Part shown: piece by piece, positions 2,242 to 58,488 of the stretch
Layout of the letters: each line of letters begins with the position of its first letter
How positions within the stretch are numbered: the first letter of the stretch is position 1
Source of the DNA: Thelephora terrestris
Taxonomy: Eukaryota; Basidiomycota; Agaricomycetes; Thelephorales; Thelephoraceae
DNA length: 64,000 nucleotides
NCBI GenBank assembly: GCA_015956445.1
Contig: WIUZ02000008.1
Location: forward strand, 1,488,001-1,552,000
Direction of reading: 5' to 3'
Translations under genes and position numbers: made by a program
The notes under the pieces: model-generated
Told to the model about the DNA's origin: nothing
Database searches by the model: none
Seen by the model: the letters and a program-made list of their open reading frames with translations, nothing else

Positions 2242-4014
2242 TCTCCTTGTCGGACTCGGCTAGAGTAGAAGCCAGAGCCAGAGTTGGGATAGGAGCTTTG
2301 TTCCCTACCTGAGGCGTGGCGTAAGACGACGGATTGGGCAATGGAAGTACCACCTCATTGGCGTACTCCAACTCGAAGGGAACCTCGGCTGAACCCTGGC
2401 CCACCAAGCGTGGTGACTTATCACAGCGACATATCTTGTCCTGAAGGAACTTGACCATCACAGTCAGAACAGCAACTTTATCCTCGTGTTCCTCAACCTA
2501 GAGAAAGACATCCTTTAGCATTTTACAATTGCAATGCTGAAAGATGTCTACCTTGATGCTTTCATCCCCAATCTTCTTCGAGTTCCTATCCATCCACTCG
2601 TCCTGCCTATCTAAGGCGCCCCCCACGTCCTTGTCCCGAACACCCAAGCTTGCGACCAGCTCCTGATGGTTAGCCACCATTGCTTCCAATGCCTCGTCAT
2701 TCACCTGGAACTCGGCCATGGCCTCTTTCAATCTGATACATTTGGCAGAGACACGAAGCACATCTGCCTTCACTTCTTTCACCTCCTGCTCCAAACGCTC
2801 AACCTACGGAAGTCTTGGTTAAAGAGAGTCATACTCTAAACACCAAGGCAACCCACCTTGCTGTCTCCTTCTCGCACCAATGACCAAAGCAGGATGGTGG
2901 ACATGGTGGCATGGTGGATGGCCCAAGGAACGGTTGCCCCGTGCTCCAACAGGTCCTGATTGTAAATCCCTCTAATCAGGGTGTACCACAACTCCTTCTT
3001 GATAGGGTGTTCCAACTCTCCAAACCCACCCCTCATTTGGTGGATCACCTTCTCGGCAATCATGGATCGGACCCAGAGCTCATCATCCCAAGTCAAAGAC
3101 ATGAGATGAGGGATTGTCTCCCTGAGACGTTCGGTGTCCACCCTCTTGATGACCTCCAAGATCTAAAAGATATTAGACCTGTCTTTGTCAGGAACATGGT
3201 ATTTTTAAACTTTTTATAACACGCTCTTTCTTCGAACTCTTCTTACCACTTCTTATGTTTTGAATGCTTCACATTCCTTATCCTTCACTCCATCATTCAA
3301 AACACACAAACGCGCATACCATTCCCAGCGAATCGTAACAACATGGCTATATACGGTGCTATCCCAGTCCCTCAAAAGTCAACTCTATCTATGGCAGGCC
3401 TAAAGGTCATCAACTGTCCATCCCGGAGATCGTAGTGCTGGCCCCTCCTCACAAGGACCTCCCCGAACATGGCGTCACCATCTTTGGCACTCAGCTGAAT
3501 GACTAGTTCAAGCCGATAAGAAGAGATACCTTTGAGCGGACCGATCAGCCTCCCAGATGTCACCGAACTGCGGAACACCTGGTCCCACATCTCCATCACC
3601 GGGTGACTGCTCAGCAGCACTATCGATGTAGTCGATGAGCAACCCTCCGTCTCCCTCGTCGGACCCCTGGGTGGGATCCTGTCTTGCGAGTCGAAGCTGG
3701 TGGCGAAGCTGGATCTCTGACTCGACCTGTCGGTAAGGACGGTTGACCCGATATCGGAATCCTCCTCCCTCATCTCGACCAGACTGGTCACCATCCGACT
3801 CAACTGGACGCGGGTATTGTCAGCGTGCTGAATTTTATTCCCTTTTTAAACCATTTTTACACCCAACTTTCGCCCACTTTCCTTACCTATACCCCTTTCT
3901 TATCTTATCATTTCCCTTATCACGACTCACACGTCATCAAGGAACACAGACAAGGACACTGATGATATTACACACTCGCGCGCAGCGAAGACACAAGACT
4001 ACCAAACCGACGGA

Positions 4015-4909
4015 CACTGGGGGCAAGGGGTCAGATACCCAGTGGGTACATGCTGAATACATTGTGATCACAGTCAAAAAGTGATCACAATGTGCCCAGT
4101 GGGGAAAATTTGAATACATTCAAAATGTACCTGGCCATGTGAACCCAATGTGCCAAGTGGGCACATTTTGATTGTGATCACAATGTACACATCAATGTGA
4201 TCTCAATGTGCCTGCTGTGCACATTTTAATTTCTTTCACAATGTCCCCATCAATGTGTTCCCAATGTACCCAGCTCATTACATAAAAGTTTCTTTCACAA
4301 TGTTGTCCACAATGTGTCCAGCATGTGGCTGAGCCACTCATTCAAAATTCTTTCAAAGATTATTCAGTGATGTGTCCATAATGTCCCCAGGGGGTTCTTT
4401 TTGAAGTAATCACAATGTAATCACAATATTGTTCAATTTCATCATGAACTTTCAAAGAAATCACTATGTGTATGGCTGTACACATTCTAGACACATCACT
4501 GGATACTTTGTGAAAGAATTTTGAATGAGTGGCTCAGCCACATGCTGGACACATTGTGGACAACATTGTGAAAGAAACTATTATGTAATGAGCTGGGTAC
4601 ATTGGGAACACATTGATGGGGACATTGTGAAAGAAATTAAAATGTGCACAGCAGGCACATTGAGATCACATTGATGTGTACATTGTGATCACAATCAAAA
4701 TGTCCCCAGTGGGCACATTGAGATCACATTGATGGGTACATTGTGATCGCAATCAAAATGTGCCCACTGGGCACATTGGGTTCACATGGCCAGGTAAATT
4801 TTGAATGTATTCAAATTTTCCCCACTGGGCACATTGTGATCACTTTTTGACTGTGATCACAATGTATTCAGCATGTACCCACTGGGTATTTGACCCCTTG
4901 CCCCCAGTG
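4015..4909. mobile_element. Foldback element FB3
   Basis: An 895-bp palindrome starting CACTGGGGGCAAGGGGTC, with target duplication GGA at 4012-4014 and 4910-4912. Internal words are CACAATGTG, CATTGTGATC and GAGCCACTCATTCAAAATTC. Nested in LTR D, just downstream of the end of G3. Same subfamily as the element at 24652-25426. Confidence 0.92.
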
Positions 4910-4966
4910 GGAGTTGAATCCGCCCGGACTCTATGAACGAGGACTAAGGCGTACAAACCCTAGTCA

Positions 4967-6717
4967 TCAAGACCTGGTCTGCCAGTCCTCCTCAGCACTG
5001 GCAACCTCCTCCTCCGTCCCCTCCGAGGCACTCTCGACGACTTCCTCGTCGACCATCTCGACGACCCGAGCTTCCTCCAGACGATGAGCTGCGACCAGCT
5101 GAACTTCGGCGCGCAGGCGGTTCCTCGCTGAATCGACCGTAGTCTGATCCAGAGTCCTCTGGACTGACCAACTCTCCACTCTCTCGGTCAGTTGAGCCAC
5201 CAGGCGAACGGCCTCCGCTGCACGCTGGACCGACAAGAGCGTAAGGTCGGTTAAGCCGTTCACATTGACGGACTCCACCGGAATCAGCTCGCCGCGATCC
5301 ACGCGACACTGTAGCATCGTCGCATCGGAATAGGACGGTGGACTCAATGTCCCCACCCTGGCGGACAACGTTGGGATTACTGGGACGCATACGGTGCGCT
5401 GGACGAAGTGCCCCACGATAAGGAACCCAACGACGAGCACGGATAGAACGTTGCCCACGCACCGGCGAGATCGACGGAGGCGGAATCGGAACAGCCACCT
5501 TGTTCTCCCCCGCGTACTCCAACTCGGGAGAACTGCTAACCGGGTTCACGGCCGTCTCCTCGGACGTCTCGCGAACGACCTCCTCCCCGCCATCAGTGTG
5601 CGCAGGTGTACGATACGACCCATCGGAAGCTAAAAGGGATGTCAGTGGACAAGTCAAATATGTCAACCAACATCCCACCTATTGGGGAAGCCATCCGATC
5701 CGGGATCGACTCGTCTCCGGACTCATCGTGAACCGCAGCTACCGAACGCGTACGGCAGTGACACAATCGCTCGCTCATGGACTCTACCCGAGCGCCCAGT
5801 AATGGCAAGGCGTCGTCCAACGTATCAACCTGAGGAGTGGCATGAGCTCTCTTGGACAAGACCAGGAGAAGTCGCACCAACCTTGGTGTCCAGCTCATTC
5901 AGAGCCCTTCTATGACGGTTGAGCCGTCGATCGACCTCGATCAGGTCCTTCTGGATGGTGTCGTCCCTCTCCTTCAAGGACTCAACCAACCGGTTATGTT
6001 CCTCCCGCATTGCCAGCATCTCGCTCTCAAACGTCACACGAAGCGTGTCTTTCATTAGGAGGAGCGTTTTCTTCATGTCCAACGCCTCCGAGTACATCCT
6101 ACGGGCGTCGTCCTTTGCTTCCTTCACCTCACGTTTCAGCCGCTCATTCTATAAGTCCATCAGTGTTATCCCACAAGCGGGATGCACAGACCGACTCACC
6201 GCTTTCTGTTCCATCCTCAGTAGGAACCAAAGGCGGTGACCAACGGCTGCTGTATAGTGTTGGGAGCGAGTCGCTCCAGGCCACCTTCCTTCTCCGTTCC
6301 CCAGATCGTAGATCCCCATCCGCAGAAGCCCCCACAACGACGAAGCTACCGGAGTCTCCCATGGCATACGCAACTCGGTGTCAAACGTGACCCCGCGCAT
6401 AGACTCCTGTAACTTGTGGTCAATCAAGTTGTGGTACCACAACTCGTCGTCCATGGTCAAGTAGTTGGGAGGCTTGGCTATCGTCGCCTCCAGTTGTCGG
6501 GCATCCACCTTGTCAGCAACCGCGAAGATCTACAAATGCGATGTCAGTTGTTGCCAGCAAACAGCGACACGTGACGTCGCACCTCGCGATAACTAGGGTA
6601 CGCCACGTTGGCATTCGGCAGGAAGTATCCCTTGTTCTGCACGGAGCGCGGATCCGCGGATTCGATGGTGGCAGTACTATTCGCAGCACGGAACACACGG
6701 TCGGAAATCATGGGCAT
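4967..6717 (-). CDS. G3: U3-borne antisense coiled-coil gene of LTR D
   Basis: ATG at 6717. Exon 1 is 6717-6583 (45 codons, includes SDRVFRAANSTATI). Exon 2 is 6529-6200 (110 codons, MDDELWYHNLIDHK, aligning with WDDELW of G1/G2). Exon 3 begins at 6146 and is a coiled coil (NERLKREVKEAKDD). Exon 4 begins at 5829 (VDTLDDALPLL). Later exons contain PELEYAGENKVAV and GELIPVESV, and end with a glutamate-rich tail and a stop at about 4967. The exact boundaries after 5700 are uncertain because the frame changes twice, implying introns. It is a diverged paralogue of G1 and G2 with the same exon order. Function unknown; I see no transmembrane segment or known enzyme motif. Confidence 0.62.
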
Positions 6718-7636
6718 GATGAGCAGTTGGTTGGTGGGATTGTTGGTTTGGGAAGAAGGGAGTTTGATGGATCCAACGACCGGTTCGCGCTACGCTTTAT
6801 TTGACCATCGACAGCGCTCGCGTCCTATTCGCCATTGGATCGGACCATCGTTTCACCGGTCCAGACTCCTCATACATTCGCCCTCGACATTCAAGCCCCA
6901 CTCGGTCTTTTGTTGTCCCGATCGGATGAGCTGACGCGTCGTCCTCTTATTGGTCAGTCTTCACATGTGATATTGTTCTTTGTCATTCCTTTCCCACACG
7001 ACGTCATGACCCCTTTTCTTATTCTCTCATGGACCCTGACCCATTAGTCATTCTTTTATTACCCCATTCTATATCCCGGGCCGCTTACTGTTCCAGCTTA
7101 CTCTCGGCCCTTCTTTGCTCCGAGTTATTATTAGATAGGGTTATCTATGTCCCGGCCACTCTCCTATATAGGTACCAGTAGAGTAGCTGAGGATTCCCCA
7201 TCTTTGATATCTCGGGAAGTCCTCTTCTCCTTGCAGCATCGGTGTATTTGCTGTAGGCCACTGAAGAGCTTATCGAGTAACTCTCGGAACCCGTTCACTC
7301 TCCTCTCTCTCTCGGCCTTGCGTCAAGAATCGGCGAACGCGCTTATGAAAAGGAGTTCCTTGCCGCTCTCTTAATCAAGCACCAGTTTGAGGCGCCATCC
7401 TCGGGCTCTCATCTCTGCCCTCAGAAGACGATAGGGATTGATCTGATAGAGGCTCGGCACTCCTGCTGTGAATTCGGACAACCTACCAGAGAACGCTCGT
7501 CCATCGCGTTTTGGACCACGTAGACTTTGGGTGGATATAGGGAAGTCGTTCCCCCTTTGCCCCATTGTTTCTTGTTGGTTGGAGTTGCGACTCACCAACA
7601 GCACTGGTACCTGAAGGGCGAAGAGTGGCCCTGACA
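6718..7636 (+). other. LTR D promoter and R-U5 part, no gene
   Basis: No convincing coding region. It holds the upstream region of G3 (reading left) and the LTR promoter (reading right). The segment from about 6795 to the end is repeated in LTR F. Confidence 0.6.
7165..7170 (+). promoter_or_regulatory. Putative LTR D TATA box
   Basis: TATATA in a context conserved in LTR F (24562-24567), about 470 bp before the LTR end. Confidence 0.5.
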
Positions 7637-9198
7637 GGTATGGGTTAGCCGACGGAGCCATGCGATGAGCAACACAGCGTCAAGAGCGTTTGCAACGCTG
7701 CCCTGTTGTCACCAGACGTACCTCAATGGCCCTTGGAGCATCTTCGGCCCGGTCAACCTCCATGACCTCATCCTCGATCTTGATCAGCTGACCGATCGGC
7801 TGCAACGGGCAACGCCGACAGTTCTCCTTGTTGGACTCGGCCAACGTGGAAGCCGGAGCCGGAGTTGGAACGGGAACCGTGTTCTCGATCGGAGGCGTCG
7901 CGTAGAATGACGGGTTAGGCGATGGGAGTACCACCTCGTCGGTGTACTCCAGCTCAAACGGAACATCGGCAGTTCCCTGACCAACCAACACAGGACCTTC
8001 CTTACAGTTGCAGGTCTTGTCTTGCAAGGACGCCACCTGCGCTGTCAATACGGCCACCACGTCCTCGAGTTGTTCAGTCTAGAAAAAGTCTCTCAGTCAT
8101 TGCATAAGCCTGCAAAGGCTGAAAGCACCTTTTCGTCCCTCCTAGCCAAAGCACCCTTGATGTTGTTGTCCCAAACCTTCAGCCTGGCAACCAACTCTTG
8201 ATGGTTGGCAACCATCGCCTCCAACGCATCGTTCATCCCTTGCTGGAAGGCAGCCAGAGTCTCCTTCATCAGAAGACCCTCCGCTGACAGACAAAGGACG
8301 TCTGCCTTTGCCTCCTTCACCTCGCGCTCTAAATGTTCCACCTAGGCCGTTTGGTTAATCGAGAGTCATACTCGAATATTCAAACAGAGAACCTACCCGG
8401 CTTTCTCCCTCCCTAATGAGCGACCACAACAGCGTGGTGGAAGCGGTGGCATGACGGATGGCCCCAGGAACGGTTGCCCCGTGCTCCAACAGGTCCTGAT
8501 CATAGATCCCCCTCTGCAGGGTGTACCATAGTTCCTTTTTGATCGGATGCTCAAGCTCCCCGAACCTACCCCTCATCTGGAAGATCACCTTCTCGGCGAT
8601 CATGGACCGGACCCAGAGTGTGATGATTTTGCCGTTTACCCCCTTTTATTCCCCTTTATTTAATGCCTCATCACCACTAAGTCACTTAGTGTCCTGCCCT
8701 AAACATGGCGGTAAACTGTTTATTATGCCATATGCCCTATGCCTAACGATTCAAAGTCCAATACGTGGAACGTGCTACTAGTCAAGATACCCCAGAAGAC
8801 CCGAGGTATAATACATGAACATGTACCGGCGGACCTTCACACGAAGATCCCCCCTACCTGGCCCTCCGTTGCCCCTGGACGACTAGTAGATATTCAGGCT
8901 ACTGACAACAAGGGATGCATTAATAAGTGACACGCGCTGACCTTGTCAGGCCGATGCGACCTCTACAGTTCAATAGCACTCTTGCTATCCAAACCTATCA
9001 CACGTAGGGATCAAACACACAGTTATAACCCTGTTGCAAACCCAGGGATATTGGAAGTCTCTTCACAGACTAGATGGAGAAGAGGAGAAAGAAGGAGACA
9101 AGGGTCTTCAGGCACTCTTGCTCTAAGCACACAGCAGTAGAGGTCACGGAGAGTCTGATGATAACAAATCTAAGGAGTACAGGCTAAACTACTCTGAG

Positions 9199-9206
9199 TA
9201 TATATA
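9199..9206 (-). promoter_or_regulatory. Putative LTR-family TATA box (LTR sense)
   Basis: TATATATA, conserved in all copies (LTR A, C, G) about 250 bp from the CCTGACA end. It sits upstream of the short R-U5-like segment. Confidence 0.5.
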
Positions 9207-9569
9207 CTACTTAGATTTGTGACGTGACAGTGACAAGTAATTACACTAATGATACAAACACAGACAAACATGGTCCGTGCACAGCACTGCATGGTCTGTG
9301 TGTTACGTGGTGACTAATGCTACAAATTATCAGCTGATAAATGAAAGTGTGGCGGCCAACAGCAATTGGAGAGCATTACAAAGCATTTACAAAGCATGAC
9401 GTATCCTGAGAATGTTCGGAAGGAATGTGGGTATGGCTGACTAACAGCCAATAGCAAAAGGGGAGCATATGACTAAAGATAGGGGCATATGATGTCATGT
9501 GGGTCATGCGCAGTAAACAATAGAAAAGACGACTCAACTCCTGAGTCATGGAAGGGGCGTGGCATTTGG

Positions 9570-9576
9570 TATATAA
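9570..9576 (+). promoter_or_regulatory. TATA box of the U3 gene
   Basis: TATATAA lies 60 bp before the ATG at 9636, with CCAAT-like boxes (GCCAATAGC) about 120 bp further up. It is conserved in the copies at 13.6, 16.1 and 50.4 kb. Confidence 0.6.
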
Positions 9577-9635
9577 CCAAAGGGGGTTGGATGACTGGTC
9601 TTCCAACAAACCACCCTTTGTTACACACAACCAAC

Positions 9636-10897
9636 ATGCCTCGTGCTTCTACTCGCAATCCCACCCGTCACTCTTCCTCTTACTCTCCTGTTCAGGAGAA
9701 CAACTACAACATCGACCGCTTCTCCCATGCCCGTCGTGATCCTTTCCGCCCTTATCCCACTTTGGGAGCCGTTATGGACCGGACCGCCACCGCCGACCCT
9801 AAGGAAGGGTTCTCTGATTTAGGTGGGGGGTCTGGTTGTGCATTCCGATTTAGGAAAGAGAACTAACTCCTTTTAGGTTTCAGGGACTTTCTCCAGGCTG
9901 CTCGAAGGGTGTCTCGGCACAAGTTGGCGCGCATCGAGACTAACCCATATGCGAACGAACTCCTCAATAGGAGTGTCGAGTTCGTGACGGAGTCCAACGA
10001 GACCTTCAACTCTGTGTTGGAGGCCAGCGTTCTCCATACGGGGAACGTTGGGTCCATGTTAATGGATGAAGTGGCTCACGTTAACAAGCGTATTGATGGT
10101 CGTCGGGAGGAGATAGAAGCTTTGGAGAATTGGAAGGAGGATATGCAGGGAGTTATTCATGGACAGGAGGATACCGTGGTTCAACAGGGCGCCAATATCG
10201 ATTTACTGAAGGTAAATGTGGGGTCGGGAGATATCGGATATCTCTAACCTAACATTTCCTTTAGGGAGAGTTGGTTACGCTGAAGGACTTAATCCGGAGT
10301 CTGGTTACTAAGACCGGAGAATTGGAGGATGATAAGGTAACGAGTAGGGGTTGAAGGTTTTTGTTATCTTCTAACCCTTTCTTGTTTTAGGTTCGCCTTA
10401 CTCGTCGTGTCTCCGAGTTGACCGGAGAAGTCCGGGATCTTCAGAGGAGGTGTAACGAGCCGGAGGTCCGAGTCGAAGAAGAGGAGTTGGAGGTTCCACA
10501 TCGGGCCGGGTCACCGATAATTCCCAATCGGGCTGAGTCGCCGCCCGCTCGTTTGTTGGTCCGTCATGAGAACAGGTTGGTTCCCATTGATGATGAGGTC
10601 ATTGAGATCGGGAGTGAAGAATTCTATCAGAATGTGGGAGTTGTCCGTAGGGATACTCCTCGTCCTGAATTCGGGTCTACCCCTTGGGGTAGTCGTCGTC
10701 AATGGCCTGCCCTGGAGTATGACCCGTACGCTGAGTTTGTTCCTGATAGTGAACCGAACTCTGACACGGAGCTTCCAGATTACGAGGACCTGTCGGACGT
10801 GGACCCGAACGAGATTAGGGAGCAGAATTGGGCGAACGAGGAGTTGGTGAGGTCGGCCTTGGAAGTAGTACAAAGGATTTGCAGAGATATTGATTAA
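9636..10897 (+). CDS. U3 gene copy B: 366-residue coiled-coil acidic protein, four exons
   Basis: Function unknown. Exons are 9636-9822, 9877-10211, 10265-10336 and 10391-10897; lengths 187+335+72+507 give 367 codons including stop. Introns are 54, 53 and 54 nt with GT-AG ends, and the first contains CTAAC. Exon 1 is basic and Ser/Arg/Pro-rich (MPRASTRNPTRHSSSY). Exon 2 is helical (RRVSRHKLARIETNPYANEL, then REEIEALENWKEDMQG). Exons 3-4 continue a coiled coil (ELTGEVRDLQRR). The C-terminal half is acidic, with NRLVPIDDEVIEIGSEE and PDSEPNSDTELPDYEDLSD. Intact in this copy. The parallel layout with G1-G3 (short exon 1, helical exon 2, coiled coil, LVPI-DEV motif) suggests a common class. Confidence 0.8.
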
Positions 10898-11357
10898 ATA
10901 ACTCTTTTGTACTATTGGGCTTCCAAGGCTTTTATCTTGTCTATTGCATGTGATCCATGAGTCGTAAAGCATAATGGTTTTTGTAAGTCCAATCCAAGAG
11001 TCAGATTAATAAGCTGGTTGACTTCTGCGAGAGGCCAACGCGCGACACTTATTAATACATCCCTTGTTGTCAGTAGCCTGAATATCTACTAGTCGTCCAG
11101 GGGCAACAGAGGGCCAGGTAGGGGGGGTCTTCGTATGAAGGTCCGCCGGTACACGTTCACGTATTATACCTCGGGTCTTCTGGGGTATCTTGACTAGTAG
11201 CACGTTCCACGTATTGGACTTTGAATCATTAGGCATAGGGCATATAGCATAATAAACAGTTTACCGCCGTGTTTAGGGCAGGGCACCAGCTGACTTAGTG
11301 GTGTTGAGGCGTTTAAATAAAGGAAATAAAAGGGGGGTAAACGGCGAAATCATCACA
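10898..11357 (+). other. LTR B distal U3, no gene
   Basis: Conserved non-coding sequence between the gene stop and the LTR terminus. It contains ACTAGTCGTCCAGGGGC and a run AAAAGGGGGG before CATCACA. Repeated in LTR A, C and G. Confidence 0.6.
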
Positions 11358-11503
11358 GACCTCTCGCAGAAGTCAACTGGCTTATTAATCTGACCCTTGG
11401 ATTGGACTTACGAAAATCATTATGCTTTACGACTCATGGATCACACGCAATAGACAAGACAGAAGATTAATTCCAAGGAAGTTCAATAGTACAAAAGAGT
11501 TAT

Positions 11504-13543
11504 TTAATCAATATCTCTGCGAATCCTTTGTACTACTTCCAAGGCCGATCTCACCAACTCCTCGTTCACCCAGTTCTGCTCCCGGATCTCGTTTGGATCC
11601 ACGTCCGACAAGTCATCGTAATCTGGAAGCTCCGTATCAGAGTTCGGTTCGCTATCAGGAACGAACTCGGCATACGGGTCATACTCCAAGGCAGGCCATT
11701 GACGACGACTACCCCAGGGAGTAGACACGAACTCAGGACAAGGAGTGTCCCTACAGACGACTCCTATGTTCTGGTAGAACTCGTCGCTCCCGATCTCAAT
11801 GACCTCATCATCAACAGGAACTAACCTGTTCTCGTGACAAACCAACAAACGAGCGGGCGGAGACTCAGCCCGATTGGGAACTATCGGCGACCCAGCCCGA
11901 TGTGGAACTTCCAACTCCTCTTCCTCGACTCGGACCTCCAGCTTGTTACACCTCCTCTGGAGATCCCGGACTTCTCCGGTCAACTCGGAGATACGACGAG
12001 TAAGGTGAACCTAAAAGGAACAGGGTTAGAAGAAATCATTATCTTCGATCCCAGCCCCCGTACCTTATCGTCTTCCAATTCTCCAGTTTTGGTAACCAGA
12101 ACCCGAACCAAATCCTTAAGAGTGGTCAACTCTCCCTTCAACAAATTGATATCGGCCCCCTGTCAAACAATGCTATCTTCCTGCCCATGGATAACGCCTT
12201 GCATATCTTCCTTCCAATTCTCCAGAGCTTCTATCTCTTCGCGACAACCATCAATGCGTTCATTAACGTGAGCCACTTCATCCCACTGGGGGCAAGGGGT
12301 CACTTACCCAGCAGATACATTGTGATTACATTGTGATTTTTTAGACAATGTTGCCAGCCTTTAGCCAGGAGGTACATGCTGAGTTCTTTTAAAAAGTACC
12401 CATCAATGCAACCACAATGTGGCCAGTGGGTCCATCTTGATCACTTTTACAAAGTGCCCATCAATTTGATCACAATGTGCCCTGTGGGTCCATGCAGGAT
12501 ACATTGTAAAAGTATCCACCAAAGTGGCCACTGGGCACTTTGTGAAAGAAACCCCTGGGTTCTTTCACAATTTTGCTTACAATGTGTCCAGCATACCCCT
12601 GAGCCACTCATTGAGAGTTCTTTCATAAAGTATCCAGCAATGTGTCCACAAAGTACTCAACCAGATACTCAAATGGTTTCTTTGAGAGTTCATTGTGAAA
12701 TCCAACCACATTGAGAGTTCATTGTGAAAACATTGAGAAGAACCCCCTGGGGACATTGTGGTTGCATTGCTGAGTACTTTTTGAAAGAACTTTCAATGAG
12801 TGGCTCAGGCACCCAGTAAATTACATTGTGAACAAAATTGTGAAAGAAACCCCTGGTTTCTTTCACAAAGTGCCCAGTGGCCACTTTGGTGGATACTTTT
12901 ACAATGTATCCTGCATGGACCCACAGGGCACATTGTGATCAAATTGATGGGCACTTTGTAAAAGTGATCAAGATGGACCCACTGGCCACATTGTGGTTGT
13001 ATTGATGGGTACTTTTTAAAAGAACTCAGCATGTACCTCCTGGCTAAAGGCTGGAAACATTGTCTAAAAAATCACAATGTATCTGCTGGGTAAGTGACCC
13101 CTTGCCCCCAGTGTCCATTAACATGGACCCAACGTTCCCCGTATGAAGAACGCTGGCCTCCAACATGGAGTTGAAGGTCTCGTTGGACTCCGTCACGAAC
13201 TCGACACCCCTATTGAGGAGTTCGTTCGCATATGGGTTAGTCTCGATGCGCGCCAACTTGCACCGAGACACCCTTCGAGCAGCCTGGAGAAAGTCCCTGA
13301 AACCTAAAAGGAGTTAGTTCGCTTTCCTAGTCAGAATGCGCAACCAGACCTCCCACCTAAATCAGAGAACCCTTCCTGAGGGTCGGCGGTGGCGGTGCGG
13401 TCCATAATGGCTCCCAAAGTGGGATAGGGACGGGACAGATCACAACGGGCATGAGAGAAGCGGTCGATGTTGTAATTGTTCTCCTGAACAGGAGAGTAAG
13501 AGGAAGAACGACGAGTGGGATTGCGAGTAGAAGCACGAGGCAT
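11504..13543 (-). pseudogene. U3 gene copy A, disrupted by foldback FB4
   Basis: Same gene as at 9636-10897 on the opposite strand, ATG at 13543 and stop at about 11504. The foldback at 12284-13113 (duplication TCC) splits exon 2 after the codons for GSMLMD; the sequence resumes as EVAHVNER. The other exons keep their frames. It represents the ancestral gene of LTR A. Confidence 0.78.
12284..13113. mobile_element. Foldback element FB4
   Basis: An 830-bp palindrome starting CACTGGGGGCAAGGGGTCAC, with target duplication TCC at 12281-12283 and 13114-13116. The empty site is seen in paralogous copies (for example 15640-15655), which read straight through. This proves the insertion and the 3-bp duplication. 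FB14 at 46570-46981 is a shortened relative. Confidence 0.95.
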
Positions 13544-14401
13544 GTTGGCTGTGTGTAACAAAGAGAGGTTTGTTGAGAGACCCAGTCATCCAACCCCCTT
13601 TGGTTATATACCAAATGCCACGCCCCTTCCACGACTCAGGAGTTGAGTCATCATTTCTATTGTTTACTGTGCATGACCCACATGACATCATATGCCCCTA
13701 TTTCTTAGTCATATGCTCCCCTTTTGCTATTGGCTGTAAGTCAGCCATACCCACATTCTTTCCAAACATTCTCAGGATACGTCATGCTTTGTAACTGCTT
13801 TGTAATGCTCTCAAATTGCTATTGGCCGCCACACTTTCATTTATCAGCTGATAATTTGTAGCATTAGTCACCACATAACGCACAGACCATGCAGTGCTGT
13901 GCACGGACTATGTTTGTCTGTGTTTGTATCATTAGTGTAGTTACATGTCACTGTCACGTCACAAATCTAAGTAGTATATATACTCAGAGTAGTTTAGCCT
14001 GTACTCCTTAGATTTGTTATCATCAGACTCTCCGTGACCTCTATTGCTGTGTGCTTAGAGCAAGAGTGCCTGAAGACCATAGTCTCCTTCCTTCTCCTTC
14101 CTTCCAATCTAAGTCTGTGAAGAGACTTCCGATATCCCTGGGTTTGCAACAGGGTTATAATTGTGTATTTGACCCCTGCGTGTGATAGGTTTGAATAACA
14201 AGAGTGTTATTGAACTGTAGAGGTCGCGTCGGCCTGACACAGAGCTCATCGTCCCAGGTCAACCCCATCAAATGAGGGATCGTCTCCCTGAGACGTTTGG
14301 CGTCCACCTTCTTGACGACCTCCAAGATCTAAAAGCTGTTAGCTCAACGTCTAAGCCGATGAACGAACGACCTCTACCTAGAGGAAGGCGTTCGTGCAAA
14401 C

Positions 14402-16762
14402 TGTGATGATTTCACCGTTTACCCCCTTTTCATTTCCAATATTTAACGCCTCATCACCACTAAGTCAGTTGGTGCCCTGCCCTAAACACGGCGGTAAACT
14501 GTTTATTATGCCATATGCCCTATGCCTAATGATTCAAAGTCCAATACGTGGAACGTGCTACTAGTCAAGATACCCCAGAAGACCCGAGGTATAATACGTG
14601 AACATGTACCGGCGGACCTTCATACGAAGATCCCCCCTACCTGGCCCTCCGTTGCCCCTGGACAACTAGTAGATATTCAGACTACCAACAACAAGGGATG
14701 TATTAATAAGTGTCGCATGTTGACCTCTCGCAGAAGTCAACCGGCTTATTAATCTGACCCTTGGATTGAACTTACAAAAACCATTATGCTTAACGACTCA
14801 TGGATCATATGCAATAGACAAAGGAAGACAATGAATTCCAAAGGGAGCCACTACAAACAAGGAACTAGTCTACATCCCTAATAATCCTCTGGACCACTTC
14901 CAGAGCGCTCCGCGCTAGTTCCTCGTTCGCCCAATTCTGCTCCCTAATCTCGTTCGGATCCATGTCCGACAGGTCATCATAATCTGGAAGCTCCGTGTCA
15001 GAGTTCGGTTCACTATCAGGAACAAACTCGGCGTACAGGTCATACTCCAGGGCAGGCCATTGACGACGACTATCCCAAGGAGTAGACACGAACTCAGGAC
15101 GAGGGGTGTCCCTACGGACGGCTCCTAAGTTCTGGTAGAACTCGTCGCTCCCGATCTCAATGACCTCATCATCAACAGGAACCAACCTGTTCTCATGACG
15201 AACCAACAAATGAGCGGGCGGCGACTCAGCCCGATTAGGGACTATCGGTGAACCAGCCCGATGGAGAACCTCTAACTCTTCTTCTTCAACTCAGACCTCC
15301 GGCTCGTTACACCTCCTCTGGAGATCCCGGACTCCTCCGGTCAACTCCGAGACGCGACGAGTAAGGCAAACCTAAAGGAATAGGGTTAGAAGATAACAAA
15401 AACCTTCAACCCCTACCCCTTACCTTATCGTCTTCCAATTCTCTGGTCTTAGTAACCAGAGCCCGGACCAAGTCTTTAAGAGTGGTCAACTCTCCCTTCA
15501 ACAAATCGATATTGGCACCCTGCCAAACAATGCTATCTTCCTGTCCATGAATAACACCTTGCATGTCTTCCTTCCAATTCTCCAAAGCTTCTATCTCCTC
15601 ACGACGACCGTCAATGCGCTCGTTAATGTGAGCCACTTCATCCATCAACATGGACCCAACGTTCCCCGTATGAAGAACACTGGCCTCCAACACGGAGTTG
15701 AAGGTCTCATTGGCCTCGGTAACGAACTCGACACCCCTATTGAGGAGTTCGTTCGCATATGGGTTAGTCTCGATACGCGCCAACTTGCGCCGAGACACCC
15801 TACGAGCAGCCTGGAGAAAGTCCCTGAAACCTAAAAGGAGTTAGTTCGCTTTCCTAAACCGGAATGCGCAACCAGACCCCCCACCTAAATCAGAGAACCC
15901 TTCCTTAGGGTCGGCAGTGGCAGTACAGTCCATAACTGCTCCCAAAGTGGGATAGGGACGGGACGGATCACAACAGGCATGAGAGAAGCGGTCGATGTTG
16001 TAGTTGTTCTCCTGAACAGGAGAGTAAGAGGAAGAGCGACGAGTGGGAACACGAGTAGAGGCACGAGGCATGTTGGCTGTGTAACAAAGGTGGGTTTGTT
16101 GGAAGACCAGTCATCCAACCCCCTTTGGTTATATACCAAATGCCACGCCCCTTCCACGACTCAGGAGTTGAGTCATCCTTTCTATTGTTTACTGTGCATG
16201 ACCCACATGACATCATATGCCCCTATTTCTTAGTCATATGCTCCCCTTTTGCTATTGGCTGTTAGTCAGCCATACCCACATTCCTTCCGAACATTCTCAG
16301 GATACGTCATGCTTTGTAAATGCTTTGTAATGCTCTCAAATTGCTATTGGCCGCCACGCTTTCATTTATCAGCTGATAATTTGTAGCATTAGTCACCACG
16401 TAACGCACAGACCATGCAGTGCTGTGCACGGACCATGTTTGTCTGTGTTTGTATCATTAGTGTAGTTACTTGTCACTGTCACGTCACAAATCTAAGTAGT
16501 ATATATACTCAGAGTAGTTTAGCCTGTACTCCTTAGATTTGTTATCATCAGACTCTCCATGACCTCTACTGCTGTGTGCTTAGAGCAAGAGTGCCTGAAG
16601 ACCCTTGTCTCCTTCTTTCTCCTTCTCTCTATCTAGTCTGTGAAGAGACTTCCGATATCCCTGGGTTTGCAACAGGGTTATAACTGTGTGTTTGACCCCT
16701 GAGTGTGATAGGTTTGGATAGTAAGAGTGCTATTGAACTGTAGAGGTCGCGTCGGCCTGACA
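14402..16762 (-). mobile_element. LTR C: complete 2.36-kb unit in intron 1 of G2
   Basis: Runs TGTGATGATTTCACC ... GGCCTGACA with target duplication CAAAC at 14397-14401 and 16763-16767. Same family as LTR A, B and G. The strand given is that of its carried gene. Confidence 0.87.
14865..16071 (-). pseudogene. U3 gene copy C, one in-frame stop
   Basis: ATG at 16071 (MPRASTRVPTRRSSSY), four exons as in copy B, stop at about 14865. In exon 4 a TGA at 15293-15291 replaces the CGA (Arg) of copy B, just before VEEEELEV. Otherwise the reading frame is kept, including LVPVDDEVIEIGSDE. Confidence 0.78.
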
Positions 16763-16991
16763 CAAACACACGAAGCTCTAGACCTCCCCCATACCTGGTC
16801 ATCAGTGGTATAGGGAGTCCCCGCCTCACTGGCGTAGGTCTTGCGGTTGGCGGCACGGCGATCGATGCGGGAGATGGTGGAGATGCCGTTGGCGACTTTA
16901 TAGGTGTGGTTGTTTGGGAAAGACATGTTGGTAAGATGATGGGGAAGTTGCTGGTGTTGCTGATCAAGGATGGCTCCAAGAAGACGTCCTT

Positions 16992-16997
16992 CTTATA
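16992..16997 (-). promoter_or_regulatory. TATA box of G2
   Basis: TATAAG on the minus strand, 66 bp upstream of the G2 ATG. The spacing is similar to that of the 9.6-kb gene. Confidence 0.45.
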
Positions 16998-16999
16998 GC

Positions 17000-17935
17000 C
17001 TAGATCGGTGATCCTTCACGTGACCTACCTCGACGAACCTCATTGGTCCGGGTCACATCAACTTCCGCCCCTGTACCATCATCGTTGGCTTACTACATCA
17101 AGCTGACACCTCGGCCCGCGGGACGGCCTTGGAAGAACTTCATTCCGGAACGCCTAGAACGTGCGCTGAACTACCCAGTCTCGCTAAGTCGTGGGACCAC
17201 GTAGCAAGAAGAGGGAGCTGAAGGGTGTGAGTGACCGGTTGTGCAGACATCGGTAGGGTAAAGCAGGTGGAGGTAGAGAGGAGCAGAGAGGAGTAGGGAG
17301 AAGTAGGGAGGGAATAGGAAGTGGTAGCGATAGAGTAGAGTCTCAATAGACGAGCGTCGCGATGAAGAGGGTCGTGGCGGGATAGGTGGCTAAGGAAGAA
17401 GCTGTCAGCGCGAGACGAGAGAACGAGAGGGTACCTGAGATGAGAAGAAACTAGTAGAAGTGGTGAACACTGCGTTCACCACGAAGAGCTAAGAGCTGAG
17501 CACTGCGCTCAAGACTGGGGTAGAGCACTGCGCTCGCGAGACGAGTAGAGAGGGTCGAGAAGCACTGCGCTTCACGTCGAGAGAAGTCGAGATGAGGAAA
17601 GAGAAAAGCTAGAGGGTTCTTCGAGCACTGCGCTCAAAGAGGACTTGGTCACGAGGAACGAAGAGTGTTGAAGGCTTTAGACAGTGCAAGGCTGAGTTGA
17701 ACTTCAGAGGGAAAGGGGGAACTGCACTTCTTTATTAGAACCAGGACTGTCTACTGACACTTATATAGTAGGTAGAGAGAGTGGTCGAAGGTAGAACACG
17801 AAGAGGGGAGAACAAAACATAACAAGGCAAATGTCGCGAGAGAGCGGGAATCGTGAAGTTCGTGAAGGGCGTAGGGAGGTCATACAAAAACGAAGAGCGG
17901 AACAGAGGGGAGAACAAGAATGCGCGAAGGACGAA
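17000..17935. other. LTR E U3 region, purine-rich, no gene
   Basis: A G/A-rich stretch upstream of the G2 promoter. It includes the mini-hairpin array at 17462-17635. No coding region is supported. Confidence 0.5.
17462..17635. repeat. Array of five mini-hairpins with constant loop ACTGC
   Basis: Five short inverted repeats share the loop ACTGC but differ in stem. Stems are GGTGAAC/GTTCACC (17462-17480), TGAGC/GCTCA (17497-17511), GAGC/GCTC (17523-17535), GAAGC/GCTTC (17559-17573) and GAGC/GCTC (17623-17635). The stems covary while the loop is constant. Confidence 0.6.
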
Positions 17936-18415
17936 CACTGGGGGCAAGGGCCCGAATACCCACCGGGCATATTGTGATTACATTGTGGTCACAGTCAAAA
18001 AGTGACTCCAATGTGCCCAGTGGGTACATTGTGAACACATTTTGAATGTATTCCATCATGTGAATCAAATTTTGCCATCACCAAACATGTAGATCACATT
18101 CACAATGTATTCAACATGTGGAGGAATTGGTGGGGTACATTGTGAACACATTTTGAATGTCGTTGATTTTACAATGTGAATCGAATGTATTCAAAATATG
18201 CCTAGGACATGCGTTTTGGTGCATTATGGTCACATGACTGGGTACATTGTAAATGCGATCAGTATTTGCCCAGCGGTAATATTAAATTCACATTTTTGGG
18301 CACATTTTGAATGTACCTGATTTTTACCCACCAGGCACATTGGGATCACTTGTTGACTGTAACCACAATGTAATCACAATGTACCTGGTGGGTATTTGGG
18401 CCCTTGCCCCCAGTG
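17936..18415. mobile_element. Foldback element FB5
   Basis: 480 bp, starting CACTGGGGGCAAGGGCCC, with target duplication GAA at 17933-17935 and 18416-18418. The arms pair less perfectly than in FB1. Confidence 0.88.
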
Positions 18416-20073
18416 GAACAAGACGGCGGGAGGAGTGGGGGGAGGAATGAAGGTATCGTGGGAAACTACGGGACAATGAAATGGAGGATCGAACCGAGAA
18501 GTTGAAGCAGGATCGGAGTGGAACAGGCGGGAGGCGGGGAACACAGCGAGACAGTCGAGACAGCGACGACATGCAACAAGAGGGCGGGGGGCACGTGTTC
18601 CGGAGTTGGGACAGCGGACCGATGCGGGGGAATCCGAACAATGACGAACAAGGGGGGCGAGGCGAGTCAAGTCAGGTGGGAGAACGGAAGTGATCGGGTG
18701 GCACATGGGATCGGGGAGGCTGGACTCGGAGCGTGGACTTAGAGGATTTTGTCGAAGTCCAGAGGAGCGGGAGGTTGCGAGACTATTGGGAGGCTGGCGA
18801 TGGTTGACAAGGGGTCGTGTCGGAGGAGGGGGCTTCGCGCTGCGTCGCGATGTATGGGTGGATAGCTGAGGAGGGTGCTGGAGTTGCTAGGGGTATAGTA
18901 CGAGTAGGACGGCCAGCGAAACGGAGGCAGGTCAGCGTGTACTAAAAATAGGTCTCAAGACCCTGATGACCCCTTTATGACATCACAAACCCCTTTTACA
19001 ACCCCTCATGACTTTACGATTATGATCAACCCTGGACCCTGATCACACACGTGGACAGTCACATCACAGTCTCCTAACCGGAGGAAGGAATCGCCGTTAT
19101 TCGGAAGGAGTGCCTTAGACTCTTTTTGTTTAGCTCAGCGAATGTGGAAGTAGCCGTTAGTGTGAAACACCGGCGAATCTGTAATCCCTCATGTCCCATG
19201 AGTCTAGGCCCGACCTCCTCATGTTTGGACGTACGTTGAGGTTGCCACTAGTCCGTGATGCTGTTACCGCCTACAGACAACAAGGGATGTTGTATGGTCT
19301 CTATCTTTGGCCTCTCCAAAGGAAGCATCCAAGAAGATTCTCACCTGACCCTTGGGTGTGATCCCCAGGTACGAACTTTCATGACCCCATGCCCCTATTT
19401 CTTTTAGGACTAGTGTTATCTTTACCCCTATGTTTCATGCGGACATTTGTTATCTTTTATGCAATCCTTCACATGCTAGTAAGGCCCTTTGTCCTTTATT
19501 CTCCCATGTGTCATTCGTGTTCGCTTCCCTTACTTAGTGTTCTCACACTCCTTATCTCCCTTTGTTCGGACTTGATAAGGGTATATTAGGGTATTGACAT
19601 CATGGCCACTCCTTTAGTATAAGTAGCAACTGTGGCTGTATCGTAGTATCTTAGTTTTGTTACCTCAGGAAATCCTCTGCCCTTCTCAGCCCAGTTGCAG
19701 TTAAGGACAAGTCAGAGTTTCTTGTTTGATCCAAGACATCCCCCATCTGCTCTCCCTCCCTCTCTGCGTGTCAACTGCGCCTCGTAACTATAGAACCTCC
19801 GCGTTCACCTTATAGAACACCTCAAGCGTCCAGTCGATCACCTGGTGGAGTCATCAATCCTGTTGTAGGGATAAACCCTTGCATGTTAAACCGAACAACG
19901 TACAGTTTAGGTTGGGTTTCCCTTTAGGATTTCGACCTGACTTGTAGTGACCTCGGACAACCTACCGGAAGAATAGGGACGTGATCGTTCCCTCACAAGC
20001 TAGTTGGACTAGTGAGTACTCTGCGGAGTCGGCTCAGTGCACTGGTAGTTGTTGGGGTAGAGTGGCCCTGACA
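18416..20073 (+). other. LTR E promoter and 3' part, no gene
   Basis: The G/A-rich first 500 bp continue the stretch at 17.0-17.9 kb. TATAAG at 19618-19623 is a candidate LTR promoter. The rest leads to CCTGACA. Part of the tail (TCGGACAACCTACC) resembles LTR D. No coding region is supported. Confidence 0.5.
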
Positions 20074-21556: not shown

Positions 21557-21648
21557 GAACTGTCACAACAATCTTCACGTCAAATCTGTGGGGCAGGTGG
21601 GGAAAATAGACTTTCCTTTCCTCCGCGTCACCCAACCACTTCGCCGCT

Positions 21649-24153: not shown

Positions 24154-25736
24154 TACTGTCCAAAATACGGTCATGGCAATGCTTTATCCGACCTCTGACA
24201 GCGCTTGCGTCCTATTCGCCATTGGATCGGCCCATCGTTTTCCTGGTCCAGACTCCCCATTCATTCATTTTGACAACAACATTCCATTCAAACCCCACTT
24301 GGTCTTTTGTTACTCTGATCAGACAAGCTGATGTGTCGTCTCCCTATTGGTTCATCTTCACATGTGATATCATCCTTTGTCATTCCTTTCCCACACAAAG
24401 TCATGACCCCTTTCTTATTTTCTCACAAACCCTGACCGATTAGTCATTCCTTTGTCATTTCTATTCTATGTTCCGGGCCGCTTACTGTTCTGGCTTACTC
24501 TCAGCCCTTCTTTACTCCAAGTTATTATTAGATAGGATTATCTCAGTCCCAGCCACTCTCCTATATAGATACCAGTAGAGTAGCTGAAAATTCCCCATCT
24601 TTGATATCTCAGGAAGTCCTCTTCTCCTTGTGGCATCGGTGTATTTGCTATCACTGGGGGCAAGGGGTCAAATACCCGGTGGGTATATGCTGAACACATT
24701 GTGATTACAGTCAACAAGTGATCATAATGTGCCCAGTGGGAGAAATTTGAATACATTCAAAATTTGCCTGGCCATGTGAGTCTAATGTGCCCACTGGGGA
24801 CATTTTGATTGCAATCACAATGTACCCATCAATGTGATCTCAATGTGGCTGCTGTGCACATTTTAATTTCTTTCACAATGTTCCCATCAATGTGTTCCCA
24901 ATGTACCCAGCTCATTACATAATAGTTTCTTTCACAATGTTGTCCACAATGTGTCCAGCATGTGGCTGAGCCACTCATTCAAAATTCTTTCAAAGATTAT
25001 CCAGTGATGTGTCCATAATCTCCCTAGGGGGTTCTTTTTGAAGTAATCACAATGTAATCTCAATATTGTTCAATTTCACCATGAACTTTAAAAGGAATCG
25101 TTATGTGTATGGTTGTACACATTCTAGACACATTGCTGGATACTTTGTGTAAGAAGTCTGAATGAGTGGCTCAGCCACATGCTGGACACACTGTGGACAA
25201 CATTGTGAAAGAAACTATTATGTAATGAGCTGGGTACATTGTGAACACATTGATGGGAACATTGTGAAAGAAATTAAAATGTACACAGCACATTGGATTC
25301 ACATGGCCATCCACATTTTGAATGTATTCAAATTTCCCCCACTGAGTACATTGTGATCACTTGTTGACTGTGATCACAATGTGCTCAGCATGTACCCACC
25401 GGGTATTTGACCCCTTGCCCCCAGTGTATAGGCCACTGAAGAGCTTATTGAGTAACTCTCGGACAACCGTTCGCTTTCCTCTCTCTCTCAGCCTTGCATC
25501 AAGAATTGGCGAACGCGCTTACGAAAAGGAGTTCCTTGCTGCTCTTTTCATCAAGCATCAGTTTGAGGCGCCATCCTCGGGCTCTCATTCCTGCCCTCAG
25601 ACAACGATAGGGATTTTACCTGATAGAGACTCAGATATAGGGAAGTTGTTCCCCCTTTGCCCCATTGATTCTTGTTCGTTGGAGTTGCAACTCACCAACA
25701 GCACTGGTACCTGAAGGGCAAAGAGTGGCCCTGACA
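24154..25736 (+). other. LTR F terminal part with promoter, no gene
   Basis: Homologous to 6795-7636 of LTR D. TATATA at 24562-24567 is the LTR promoter candidate. It is interrupted by the foldback at 24652-25426 and ends CCTGACA at 25736. Confidence 0.6.
24652..25426. mobile_element. Foldback element FB7
   Basis: 775 bp, starting CACTGGGGGCAAGGGGTC, with target duplication TAT at 24649-24651 and 25427-25429. The empty site is visible in LTR D at about 7250. Same subfamily as FB3. Confidence 0.93.
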
Positions 25737-45234: not shown

Positions 45235-45659
45235 AAAGGAGGATTTTGGCGGTGAACAAGGGCTCTTCTGGGGGTCCTCCGTGAAGACAGAGGATCAACG
45301 CCCAGAGAGTTCCTGTGAAGGTGGGTCCTAGGTTGTACAGTGTCAAGGAACTCCAAGCAGCGACTGGGGAACAGTTGCGAAGAAAGCGCAAAGGTGGAGA
45401 TACCAGAAGAGAGTTAGAGACAAAGCAAGAAAAGCAGTAGGATGGAGCGCAATGATCTCCAGAGTAGCTAGTACAGGATATATATACTAAGGTCTGCTCT
45501 GAGAGGGTTCCAGAGAAGAAAGGAGGAAAACTGCGAAATAGGACCTATGATGCAATGGCGAAGTCATAGGGGAAGAGGAGAAAAGGGGAAAGTTGTCATG
45601 AAAGGGGAAAGTCATCATAAAGGGGGAACTAAGCAAAGGGGAGGGTCTTCTGGAGAAGA
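45235..45659. other. LTR-like promoter region upstream of gene P
   Basis: TATATATA at 45479-45486 resembles the conserved LTR-family box at 9199-9206. No gene. The region may be the U5-R end of another LTR, but I did not find its terminus or duplication. Confidence 0.35.
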
Positions 45660-49741: not shown

Positions 49742-52160
49742 TGTCAGGCTGACGCGACCTCTACAGTTCAATAGCACTCTTGCTATCCAAACCTATCACA
49801 CTCAGGGGTCAAACACACAGTTATAACCCTGTTGCAAACCCAGGGATATCGGAAGTCTCTTCACAGACTAGATTGGAGAGGGGGAGAAAGAAGGAGACAA
49901 GGGTCTTCAAACACTCTTGCTCTAAGCACACAGCAGTAGAGGTCACGGAGAGTCTGATGATAACAAATCTAAGGAGTACAGGCTAAACTACTCTGAGTAT
50001 ATATACTACTTAGATTTGTGATGTGACCGTCACATGTAATTACACTATGGATACAAACACAGACAAACATGGTCCGTGCACAGCACTGCATGGTCTGTGC
50101 GTTACGTGGTGACTAATGCTACAAATTATCAGCTGATAAACGAAAGTGTGGCGGCCAATAGCAATTTGAGAGCATTACAGAGCAATTACAAAGCATGACG
50201 TAGCCTGGGAATGTTCGGAAGGAATGTGGGTATGACTGACTAACAGCCAATGGCAAAAGGGGAGCATATGACTAAGAAATAGGGGCATATGATGTCATGT
50301 GGGTCATGCGCAGTAAACAATAGAAATGATGACTCAACTCCTGAGTCGTGGAAGGGGCGTGGCATTTGGTATATAACCAAAGGGGGTTGGATGACTGGTC
50401 TTCCAACAAACCCACCTTTGTTACACACAGCCAACATGCCTCGTGCTTCTACTCGCAATCCCACTCGTCGCTCTTCCTCTTACTCTCCTGTCCAGGAGAA
50501 CAATTACAACATCGACCGCTTCTCCCATGCCCGTCGGGATCCTTCCCGCCCTTATCCCACCTTGGGAGCAGTTATGGACCGCACTGCCACCGCCGACCCT
50601 AAGGAAGGGTTCTCTGACTTAGGTGGGGGCTCTGCTTGTGCGTTCCGGTTTAGGAAACCAAGCTAACTCCTTTTAGATTTCAGGGACTTTCTCCAGGCTG
50701 CTCGAAGGGTGTCTCGGCGCAAGTTGGCGTGCATAGAGACTAACCCTTATGCAAACGAACTCCTCAATAGGGGTGTTGAGTTTGTGACTGAGGCCAATGA
50801 GACCTTCAACTCCGTGTTGGAGGCCAGCGTTCTTCATACGGGGAACGTTGGGTCCATGTTAATGGACGAGGTGGCTCATGTCAACGAGCGCATTGATGGT
50901 CGTCGTGAGGAGATCGAAGCTTTGGAGAACTGGAAGGAGGATATGCAGGGGGTTATTCATGGACAGGAGGATAGCATTGTTCGACAGGGGGCCGACATTG
51001 ATTTGCTGAAGGTAAATGTGGGGTCGGGAGATAATTGACTTTTCTAACCCAACATTTCCTTTAGGGAGAGGTGACTACCCTCAAAGACTTGGTCCGAGCT
51101 CTGGTTACTAAAACCGGAGAGTTGGAGGACGATAAGGTAAGGGGTAGGGGTTGAAGGTTTTTGATATCTTCTAACCCTATTCCTTTTAGGTTCGCCTTAC
51201 TCGTCGTGTCTCCAAGTTGACCGGAGAGGTCCGGGATCTCCAGAGGAGGTGTAACGAGCCGGAGGTCCAAGTTGAGGAGGAAGAAGGGGAAGAGGTTCTG
51301 CATCGGGCCGGGTCGCCGATCATCCCTAATCGGGCTGAGTCGCCGCCCGCTCGTTTGTTGGTCCGTCACGAGAACAGGTTGGTTCCCGTTGATGATGAGG
51401 TCATCGAGATCGGGAGCGACGAATTCTACCAGAACGTAGGAGTCGTCCGTAGGGACACTCCTCGTCCTGAGTTCGTTTCTACTCCTTGGGGTAGTCGCCG
51501 TCAATGGCCTGCTCTGGAGTATGATCCGTACGCCGAGTTCGTTCCCGATAGTGAACCAAACTCTGATACGGAACTTCCAGATTACGATGACTTGTCGGAC
51601 GTAGACCCGAACGAGATCCGGGAGCAGAACTGGTTGAATGAGGAGTTGGTGAGGTCGGCATTGGAAGTAGTACAAAGGATCCGAAGAGATATTGATTAGA
51701 TAACTCTTTTGTACGGTTGGCTTCCAATGAATCTTCTTTATTGTCTATTGCGCGTGATCCATGAGTCGTAAAGCATAATGGTTTTCATAAGTCCAATCCA
51801 TGGGTCAGATTAATAAGCCGGTTGACTTCTGCGAGAGGTCAGCGCGCGACGCTTATTAATACATCCCTTGTTGTCGGTAGCCTGAATATCTACTAGTCGT
51901 CCAGGGGCAACGGAGGGCCAGGTAGGGGGGATCTTCATATGAAGGTCCGCCAGTACATGTTCACGTATTATACCTCGGGTCTTCTGGGGTATCTTGACTA
52001 GTAGCACGTTCCACGTATTGGACTTTGAGTCGTTAAGCATAGGGCATACTGCATAATAAACAGTTTACCGCCGTGTTTAGGGCAGGGCACCAACTGACTT
52101 AGTGGTGATGAGGCGTTAAATAAAGGAAATTAAAAGGGGGTCAACGGCGAAATCATCACA
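49742..52160 (+). mobile_element. LTR G: complete 2.42-kb unit in the LINE
   Basis: Runs TGTCAGGCTGACGCG ... AAATCATCACA with target duplication TGCGT at 49737-49741 and 52161-52165. The LINE frame resumes on both sides. Same family as LTR A-C. The strand given is that of the carried gene. Confidence 0.93.
50436..51699 (+). CDS. U3 gene copy G: 367-residue coiled-coil acidic protein, four exons
   Basis: Exons 50436-50622, 50677-51011, 51065-51136 and 51190-51699; lengths 187+335+72+510 give 368 codons including stop. Intact. TATATAA lies about 60 bp upstream. Introns sit at the same places as in copy B. The last exon is one codon longer than copy B, with an extra acidic residue near EEEGEEV. 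LVPVDDEVIEIGSDE is present. Coding sequence is much better conserved between B and G than needed for a chance frame, with many silent changes, so the protein appears to have been under selection. Confidence 0.82.
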
Positions 52161-58417: not shown

Positions 58418-58488
58418 CACAACGGGAAGAACAATAGCAAGCCATAACCCCGCTTTGTTCTCCGCATTTGGTAACTTCTTCCTTACTT

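Follow-up and report, generated by a model that had tools for sequence, protein, structure and literature searches.

We analysed a 64,000-nt stretch of the Thelephora terrestris genome (contig WIUZ02000008.1, positions 1,488,001 to 1,552,000; G000:C59:1488001-1552000 in our numbering), hereafter the window, which holds a nest of long terminal repeat (LTR) units. Every unit in the window carries an intron-bearing gene that runs antisense to the LTR sense (TG..TATA..CCTGACA). A sequence-only reading of the window had proposed that multi-exon coiled-coil genes lie antisense in LTRs with TG..CA ends, and this is borne out for the units F, E, A, B, C and G, each bounded by an exact 5-bp duplication. 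Genome searches were carried out in the assembly of this species (40.6 Mb, 60 contigs). The units and their genes are listed below in window coordinates (MITE, miniature inverted-repeat transposable element).

3186..20073, + (LTR sense): F-type LTR, TGTCAGGAAC..GGCCCTGACA, duplication GTCTT; interrupted by E, B, C and a ~1.8-kb insert
16795..16926, -: exon 1 of the F gene, ATG at 16926; read by eye
14240..14328, -: 5' part of exon 2 of the F gene; the remainder, from 8618 downwards, is split off by B
7642..8618, -: rest of exon 2 and later exons of the F gene
19618..19664, +: F LTR TATA (TATAAG at 19618) and predicted transcript start (AGTTTTGTTACC at 19653, 35 nt on; counted by eye)
about 17174-18934: further insert in F, ~1.8 kb
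3818..7636, + (LTR sense): E-type LTR, duplication GGTAT at 3813-3817 and 7637-7641; MITE-like insert at 4015-4909
4967..6716, -: E gene, about five exons, exon 2 at 6200-6529; the last exon appears frame-shifted in the window copy (by eye)
7165..7210, +: E LTR TATA (7165) and start motif, ATCTTTGATAT at 7200-7210
8619..14239, LTR +, gene -: B, A-family LTR, duplication CAGAG; interrupted by A and, at 12284-13113, by a MITE
8944..11357, LTR sense -: A, A-family LTR, TGTGATGATT..CCTGACA on the - strand, duplication GACCT
9636..10897, +: A gene of 366 codons in 4 exons
10104..10211, +: variable coil module, codons 76-111, in exon 2 of the A gene; at least three discrete types
14402..16762, LTR +, gene -: C, A-family LTR, duplication CAAAC
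49742..52160, LTR -, gene +: G, A-family LTR, duplication TGCGT; all exons open; locus L017
2237..3162, -: D1, older relic of an F-type gene, adjoining F
24181..25736, +: E-type LTR fragment, from the promoter to the CCTGACA end; MITE-like insert

A lies within B, and E, B and C lie within F, while G is separate. At each of the four insertion points in F, two or more of the copies L019, L021, L032, L034, L037 and L058 run on without a break. The outer LTR end had been placed at 16926, which is in fact the ATG of the F gene, the LTR itself ending at 20073; likewise, D had been taken for a separate LTR type, whereas the D relic and F share one gene type. The segments 8619-8943 and 11032-11357 were considered as long terminal inverted repeats and rejected, as they reflect A nested in B in the opposite orientation. 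The introns had also been described as intact in every copy. This holds for the A-family copies read (below), but not all coding frames in the window are intact: the B gene pieces contain one stop, the C gene contains one stop in exon 4 (pieces compared), and the E gene is apparently frame-shifted. No Rfam family was matched within the window.

E- and F-type units are LTRs of Ty3/gypsy elements

In the F, E and A searches, 150 candidates each were scored out of 993, 992 and 234, respectively. The search with E exons 2-3 identified three loci (C12, C5 and C23) at which two matches lie on one strand at a distance of 8.76-8.80 kb. Each pair encloses one reverse transcriptase (RT), which runs opposite to the two LTR genes. 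We read the inner part of the C12 element and the outer LTR pieces of all three, the LTR genes being located by exon matches. Their LTRs end in TGTCAGCG..CCTGACA and are flanked by the duplications GTTTT, CAGTT and GACAT, respectively, so that TGTCA..TGACA ends and a 5-bp duplication are found in three of three elements. The gag frame of C12 (567 aa) contains a CCHC knuckle above the cut-off, with gag and Ty3-capsid matches below theirs. The pol frame (1300 aa) contains protease, RT, RNase H, an integrase zinc finger, a Tf2-1 SH3 domain and a chromodomain, the integrase core being below the cut-off. This order is that of gypsy elements (protease, RT, RNase H, integrase) with a C-terminal chromodomain, and both the integrase zinc finger and the SH3 domain exceed their cut-offs. 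C12 thus has a complete gag-pol of a Tf2-like chromovirus. Between the end pieces of the two C12 LTRs there is one difference in 176 nt and none in 152 nt (1 of 328 in all), indicating a recent insertion.

Two nucleotides past the 5' LTR of C12 lies the primer-binding site ATATCAAAGAT. It is the exact 11-nt complement of the E start motif at 7200-7210 in the window, which follows the first base of the LTR TATA by 35 nt; a match as good was found in 5 of 2000 letter-shuffled sites. The site is one of Tf1-type self-priming, with the 5' end of the element RNA predicted from these motifs. Chromoviruses of the Tf1/sushi group (Tf1, Tf2, Tosmo, Tcry1 and Tj1) resemble E in their chromodomain-bearing pol, Tf2-type SH3 domain and self-priming complement, and also in the TGTCA..TGACA ends and 5-bp duplications described, with self-priming, in PMC10085805. 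They differ in the LTR, which according to the same paper is 406 bp in Tcry1-1, compared to about 2.9-3.3 kb with an antisense multi-exon gene here. Thus, the E units are LTRs, about 2.9 kb long, of a Ty3/gypsy element, a chromovirus of the Tf1/sushi kind.

Applying the 35-nt spacing to F and A as well gave a joint primer-site pattern, CCTGACAN{0,4}RTAWCAAAD, predicted ahead of the search. It matched 11 places in the genome and none in the reversed control; three of the hits are the E elements and the other eight are of the F type. Contig by contig, all eight F-type sites adjoin an RT of the same sense (seven scoring 111.8 bits and one 109.1), in open frames of 1322 aa in six cases and of 1367 and 1113 aa in the other two. 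The LTR was partly read in one of the eight (L058, at C4), all but the final 1.7 kb before the primer site. It starts with TGTCAGGAACATGG, as F does, 3.3 kb ahead of the primer site, and has the F exons open on the - strand, upstream of the + strand RT and without the inserts of the window F. The order of its open frames matches the F exons as re-joined in the sequence-only reading, with a last frame of 248 codons against the 747 nt given there. We conclude that the F units are LTRs, about 3.3 kb long, of Ty3/gypsy elements, and that they carry an antisense gene. In both types, the gene lies in the U3 part of the LTR, upstream of where the element RNA is predicted to begin. A gag-pol on the same strand as the genes, which had been named as the finding that would count against the arrangement, was not seen; the RT is opposite to the gene at the three E loci and in the one F element.

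The A-family gene is under purifying selection

The A-family sample comprises the 30 best-ranked places with 1.5-kb flanks (40 of 309 candidates were scored); since these are the best-scoring copies, intactness is not claimed for all. The A gene has exons of 187, 335, 72 and 507 nt, separated by introns of 54, 53 and 54 nt. All three introns keep GT..AG in every one of the 30 copies; introns 1 and 3 have a branch-point motif in all 30, and intron 2 has one in 29. Intron-less copies, the other finding that had been named as adverse, do not occur among them. The frame has 366 or 367 open codons in 29 copies, with one stop in L014. The TATA of the gene (9570) is kept in every copy and that of the LTR (9198) in 28, the other two being shortened by 2 nt. 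An exact 5-bp duplication bounds 29 of the 30 (all except L024), which identifies them as solo units. Mean pairwise identity per copy ranges from 0.913 to 0.947, and the closest pair, L021/L023, is 99.6% identical. Genome-wide, the A end motif GCGAAATCATCACA (at most one mismatch) occurs at 233 places, compared to 2 for the reversed control, and exon 2 is free of stops in 143 of 150 A-family places (counted by eye, 150 of 234 candidates scored).

Selection was analysed in the A family only. Over 29 copies (L014 excluded), the proportions of nonsynonymous (pN) and synonymous (pS) differences are 0.0175 and 0.273, with a ratio of 0.064 that varies from 0.035 to 0.103 in 46-codon windows. Variants present in at least three copies comprise 167 synonymous and 21 nonsynonymous changes, and sites with two common alleles are distributed 17/7/152 over codon positions 1/2/3 (all 30 copies). 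The singletons, scored in 29 copies (L009 excluded), include 73 missense, 73 synonymous and 1 nonsense change in the coding region, where the noncoding singletons of these copies would predict 95, 46 and 6; their density is 13.3 per 100 columns in coding and 12.5 in pooled noncoding sequence. The low pN/pS, together with the codon-position and singleton patterns, shows that the A protein is selected, not the DNA alone. The rate comparison that had been suggested as a check shows strong purifying selection on the A-family gene across dispersed copies.

Diversity among A copies reaches its maximum, 12.6%, in the 150-nt window 10144-10293; other A-family copies have the same backbone with a different coil. 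At codons 76-111, pN is 0.019 within type A and 0.36-0.46 between types A, T2 and T3 (T2 and T3 being represented by two copies each), while at codons 1-75 it is 0.009-0.051 between the same types. The between-type pN/pS at the coil is 0.56-0.71, by which positive selection is not shown. In a search with the T3 exon, 54 of 150 places are at least 95% identical, 7 are at 84-90% and 89 at 72-83% (counted by eye, 150 of 234 candidates scored), a distribution that indicates clustered rather than graded coil types. The middle parts of the A, E and F proteins have heptad excesses that were equalled by 1, 0 and 1 of 300 shuffles, respectively. For two further stretches of the A protein, the shuffles did so in 60 and 263 of 300 cases. 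What is new here is a coil that occurs in discrete conserved types on one backbone, with diversity maximal at the coil.

How far two A copies differ early in the coding region says almost nothing about how far they differ late in it (r = 0.11), pointing to heavy recombination among copies. On average, pairs differ by 3.4% in one LTR flank and 3.7% in the other, by 7.9% in the coding region and by 10% in the introns. The synonymous difference is 27% (48% in the coil part), far above that of introns and flanks, and this excess could mean either that the gene lineages are deep and their backbones young or that the flanks are constrained.

Identity of the A family, alternatives and possible role

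Taken together, these results show that E and F LTRs carry a coiled-coil multi-exon gene antisense to gag-pol and that its A-family counterpart is selected. The reading built on them is very probable as a whole, the role of the protein being more tentative. The proposal that antisense placement explains intron survival is supported by the strand of gag-pol in E and F, and it fits the A family. As the element RNA would cross the LTR gene in antisense, the introns would go unrecognised and so be kept through reverse transcription. Every new insertion would then bring a gene with its own promoter, and so would every solo LTR that recombination leaves behind. The exon-2 domains of E and F are homologous, with 36-38% identity and an E-value of about 2e-6 in a small search.

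Full-length elements with gag-pol, which the sequence-only reading had named as a check, were found for the E and F types but not for the A type. We use the term LTR for A units on the basis of their anatomy and of a promoter layout shared with E and F, with a TATA, a related start motif 35 nt on, and then CCTGACA. Most likely, the A family is a third LTR type of which this assembly lacks the full-length form. Several results weigh against our interpretation. None of the 30 A copies read bears gag-pol, and none of the 11 genome hits of the joint pattern is an A-type primer site. There was no excess of pol around 120 A ends or units, with 6 sense and 6 antisense cases after one end and 4 and 5 before the other; this count covers the first 100 of 233 end places and 20 unit places (at least 4 double-listed), each end counted as a whole unit, and uses hand-copied RT and integrase places in which integrase rows beside an RT row are mostly omitted, as are contigs with no listed units. 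A exon 2 has no detectable similarity to the E/F exon-2 domain. No known domain was recognised; Pfam gave no match above the cut-off for the A protein and the E and F exons. Finally, the F gene was read in one of eight F elements.

Among the listed RT and integrase places, none lies between the same-orientation A pairs at C4, C1 and C7. An RT lies near an A unit at C20, antisense to the LTR sense. The A units at C8 and C22 share a copia element at one position, which was discounted as one duplicated segment and not two independent cases; a 9-kb segment containing an A LTR with a copia insertion (360-bp LTRs) is duplicated on two contigs (L043/L044), 99.5% alike. Four lone integrase fragments were rejected, as they belong to a repeat without these LTRs. 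Beyond Pfam, the exon-2 parts of E and A are unmatched in NCBIfam, the A protein and the E/F domain are unmatched by sequence among solved structures, and the E exon-2 domain is not similar to the E gag (best E-value 1.3).

Protein genes in or across LTRs occur in retroviruses. The sag gene of mouse mammary tumor virus is housed in U3, as is the gene here, but it lies on the sense strand and encodes a superantigen. HBZ of human T-lymphotropic virus 1 is antisense and spliced, encodes a coiled-coil bZIP protein and is read from the 3' LTR into the provirus. Here, in contrast, both gene and promoter lie within the LTR, and the Pfam scan of the A protein showed no bZIP domain. An antisense promoter in the HTLV 3' LTR is noted in PMC7264820. 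In plants, Retand and other elements (Grande with gene23, RIRE2 with TRP28) have a conserved extra open reading frame (ORF) antisense to gag-pol, of unknown function, situated between pol and the 3' LTR (PMC11963269 and PMC7264820); the word "intron" appears in neither of these two papers. These ORFs lie outside the LTR, whereas the gene here lies inside and is thus doubled per element and kept in solo LTRs; TRP28 (PF04195) had no Pfam match in the A protein or in the E and F exons. Other systems compared were bdelloid LTR elements with extra ORFs and Tcn1-like chromoviruses (PMC5408684 and PMC2864245, respectively). A literature search found no antisense gene inside fungal LTRs; it covered only part of two result lists (12 of 60 and 10 of 29 hits) and few subscription journals, and is not proof of absence.

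The role of the protein, its expression and its maintainer (element or host) are matters of inference. Tentatively, the product may be a trans-acting accessory factor that acts through coiled-coil self-assembly and controls transcription, silencing or integration, the coil fixing which copies pair. A bolder version, which we regard as somewhat doubtful, is a dispersed system of self/non-self recognition or copy control. Hundreds of solo LTRs would serve as gene cassettes, with the conserved N-terminal part doing a common job and exchangeable coils of discrete types setting the pairing; old coil lineages would be kept by frequency-dependent selection and the backbone reshuffled by recombination.

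It is also conceivable, if unlikely, that the host and not the element keeps the LTR gene, with solo-LTR proteins forming a distributed defence, or type recognition, against incoming elements. The mostly open frames of the sampled solos (29 of 30), the deficit of missense and nonsense singletons, the discrete coil types and the diversity peak at the coil would all agree with this. However, selection in active lineages before insertion would leave much the same pattern, and singleton density is similar in coding and noncoding sequence.

Fission-yeast wtf genes, which have transmembrane parts and two start sites, are drivers, and by analogy the LTR gene could be a selfish poison-antidote driver spread by LTRs, with types matched through the coil. 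The type-like variation on a conserved backbone is in keeping with such a driver, but the case is one of analogy only and we consider it improbable. Still less probable is that the units are DNA transposons that carry a gene, like Ginger, in which case the introns would need no explanation. In favour, A units were seen only singly and have TGTSA ends in inverted orientation, while TGTNR ends and duplications of 4-5 bp are typical of Ginger/TDD elements (PMC2836005). Against this, E direct repeats flank gag-pol with a self-priming site, F starts lie likewise beside an RT, and A shares their promoter layout; moreover, Ginger encodes a gypsy-like integrase and no RT, whereas E has RT and LTRs and the A unit shows the coil gene only. 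Least credible is a host-owned multigene family with LTRs inserted alongside, like the wtf genes (which take their name from Tf LTRs and make up the largest gene family of S. pombe; PMC10085805), for although many spliced conserved copies do lie near LTR sequence, the gene occupies a fixed place within duplication-bounded units (29 of 30) and within the LTR of a full-length F element.

In the preferred reading, a spliced gene antisense in an LTR has introns that outlast the RNA life cycle and, as the solo LTR retains it, survives the loss of gag-pol. Solo LTRs, usually seen as dead scars, would thus be potential carriers of selected protein genes. The 150 scored candidates each for F, E and A offer a large natural series in which to study the function of antisense retroelement proteins, a question that PMC7264820 leaves open for plant antisense ORFs.

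Other repeats in the window

A foldback MITE-like family, near-wholly palindromic and with ends CACTGGGGGCAAGG, is present at 57-783, 4015-4909, 12284-13113, 17935-18417, 24652-25427 and 44509-45234. Several copies lie within LTR genes; the second, third and fourth of these sites are in the E, B and F units, and the copy in E has relatives at 94-98% identity in many places (40 of 940 candidates scored). Fragments of RNase H and RT at 48312-49760 (-) and 54027-54614 (-) flank LTR G on one strand and possibly belong to one retroelement split by insertions. At the extreme end of the window, 63901-63999 is a fragment like A exon 4.

The segment 56964-63905 has ~1.3-kb inverted repeats (99%) around a 1168-aa ORF (58584-62090) with an RVT_1 match below the cut-off. 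It also contains internal repeats (57749-58125, 58245-58622 and 62717-63093), which are reminiscent of a DIRS-like organisation. A near-perfect palindrome of 2.26 kb (45649-47905, 98.5%) has ORFs on both arms, and broken ORFs occupy 21610-23857, one of them with a DDE_1 transposase match (22754-23305).

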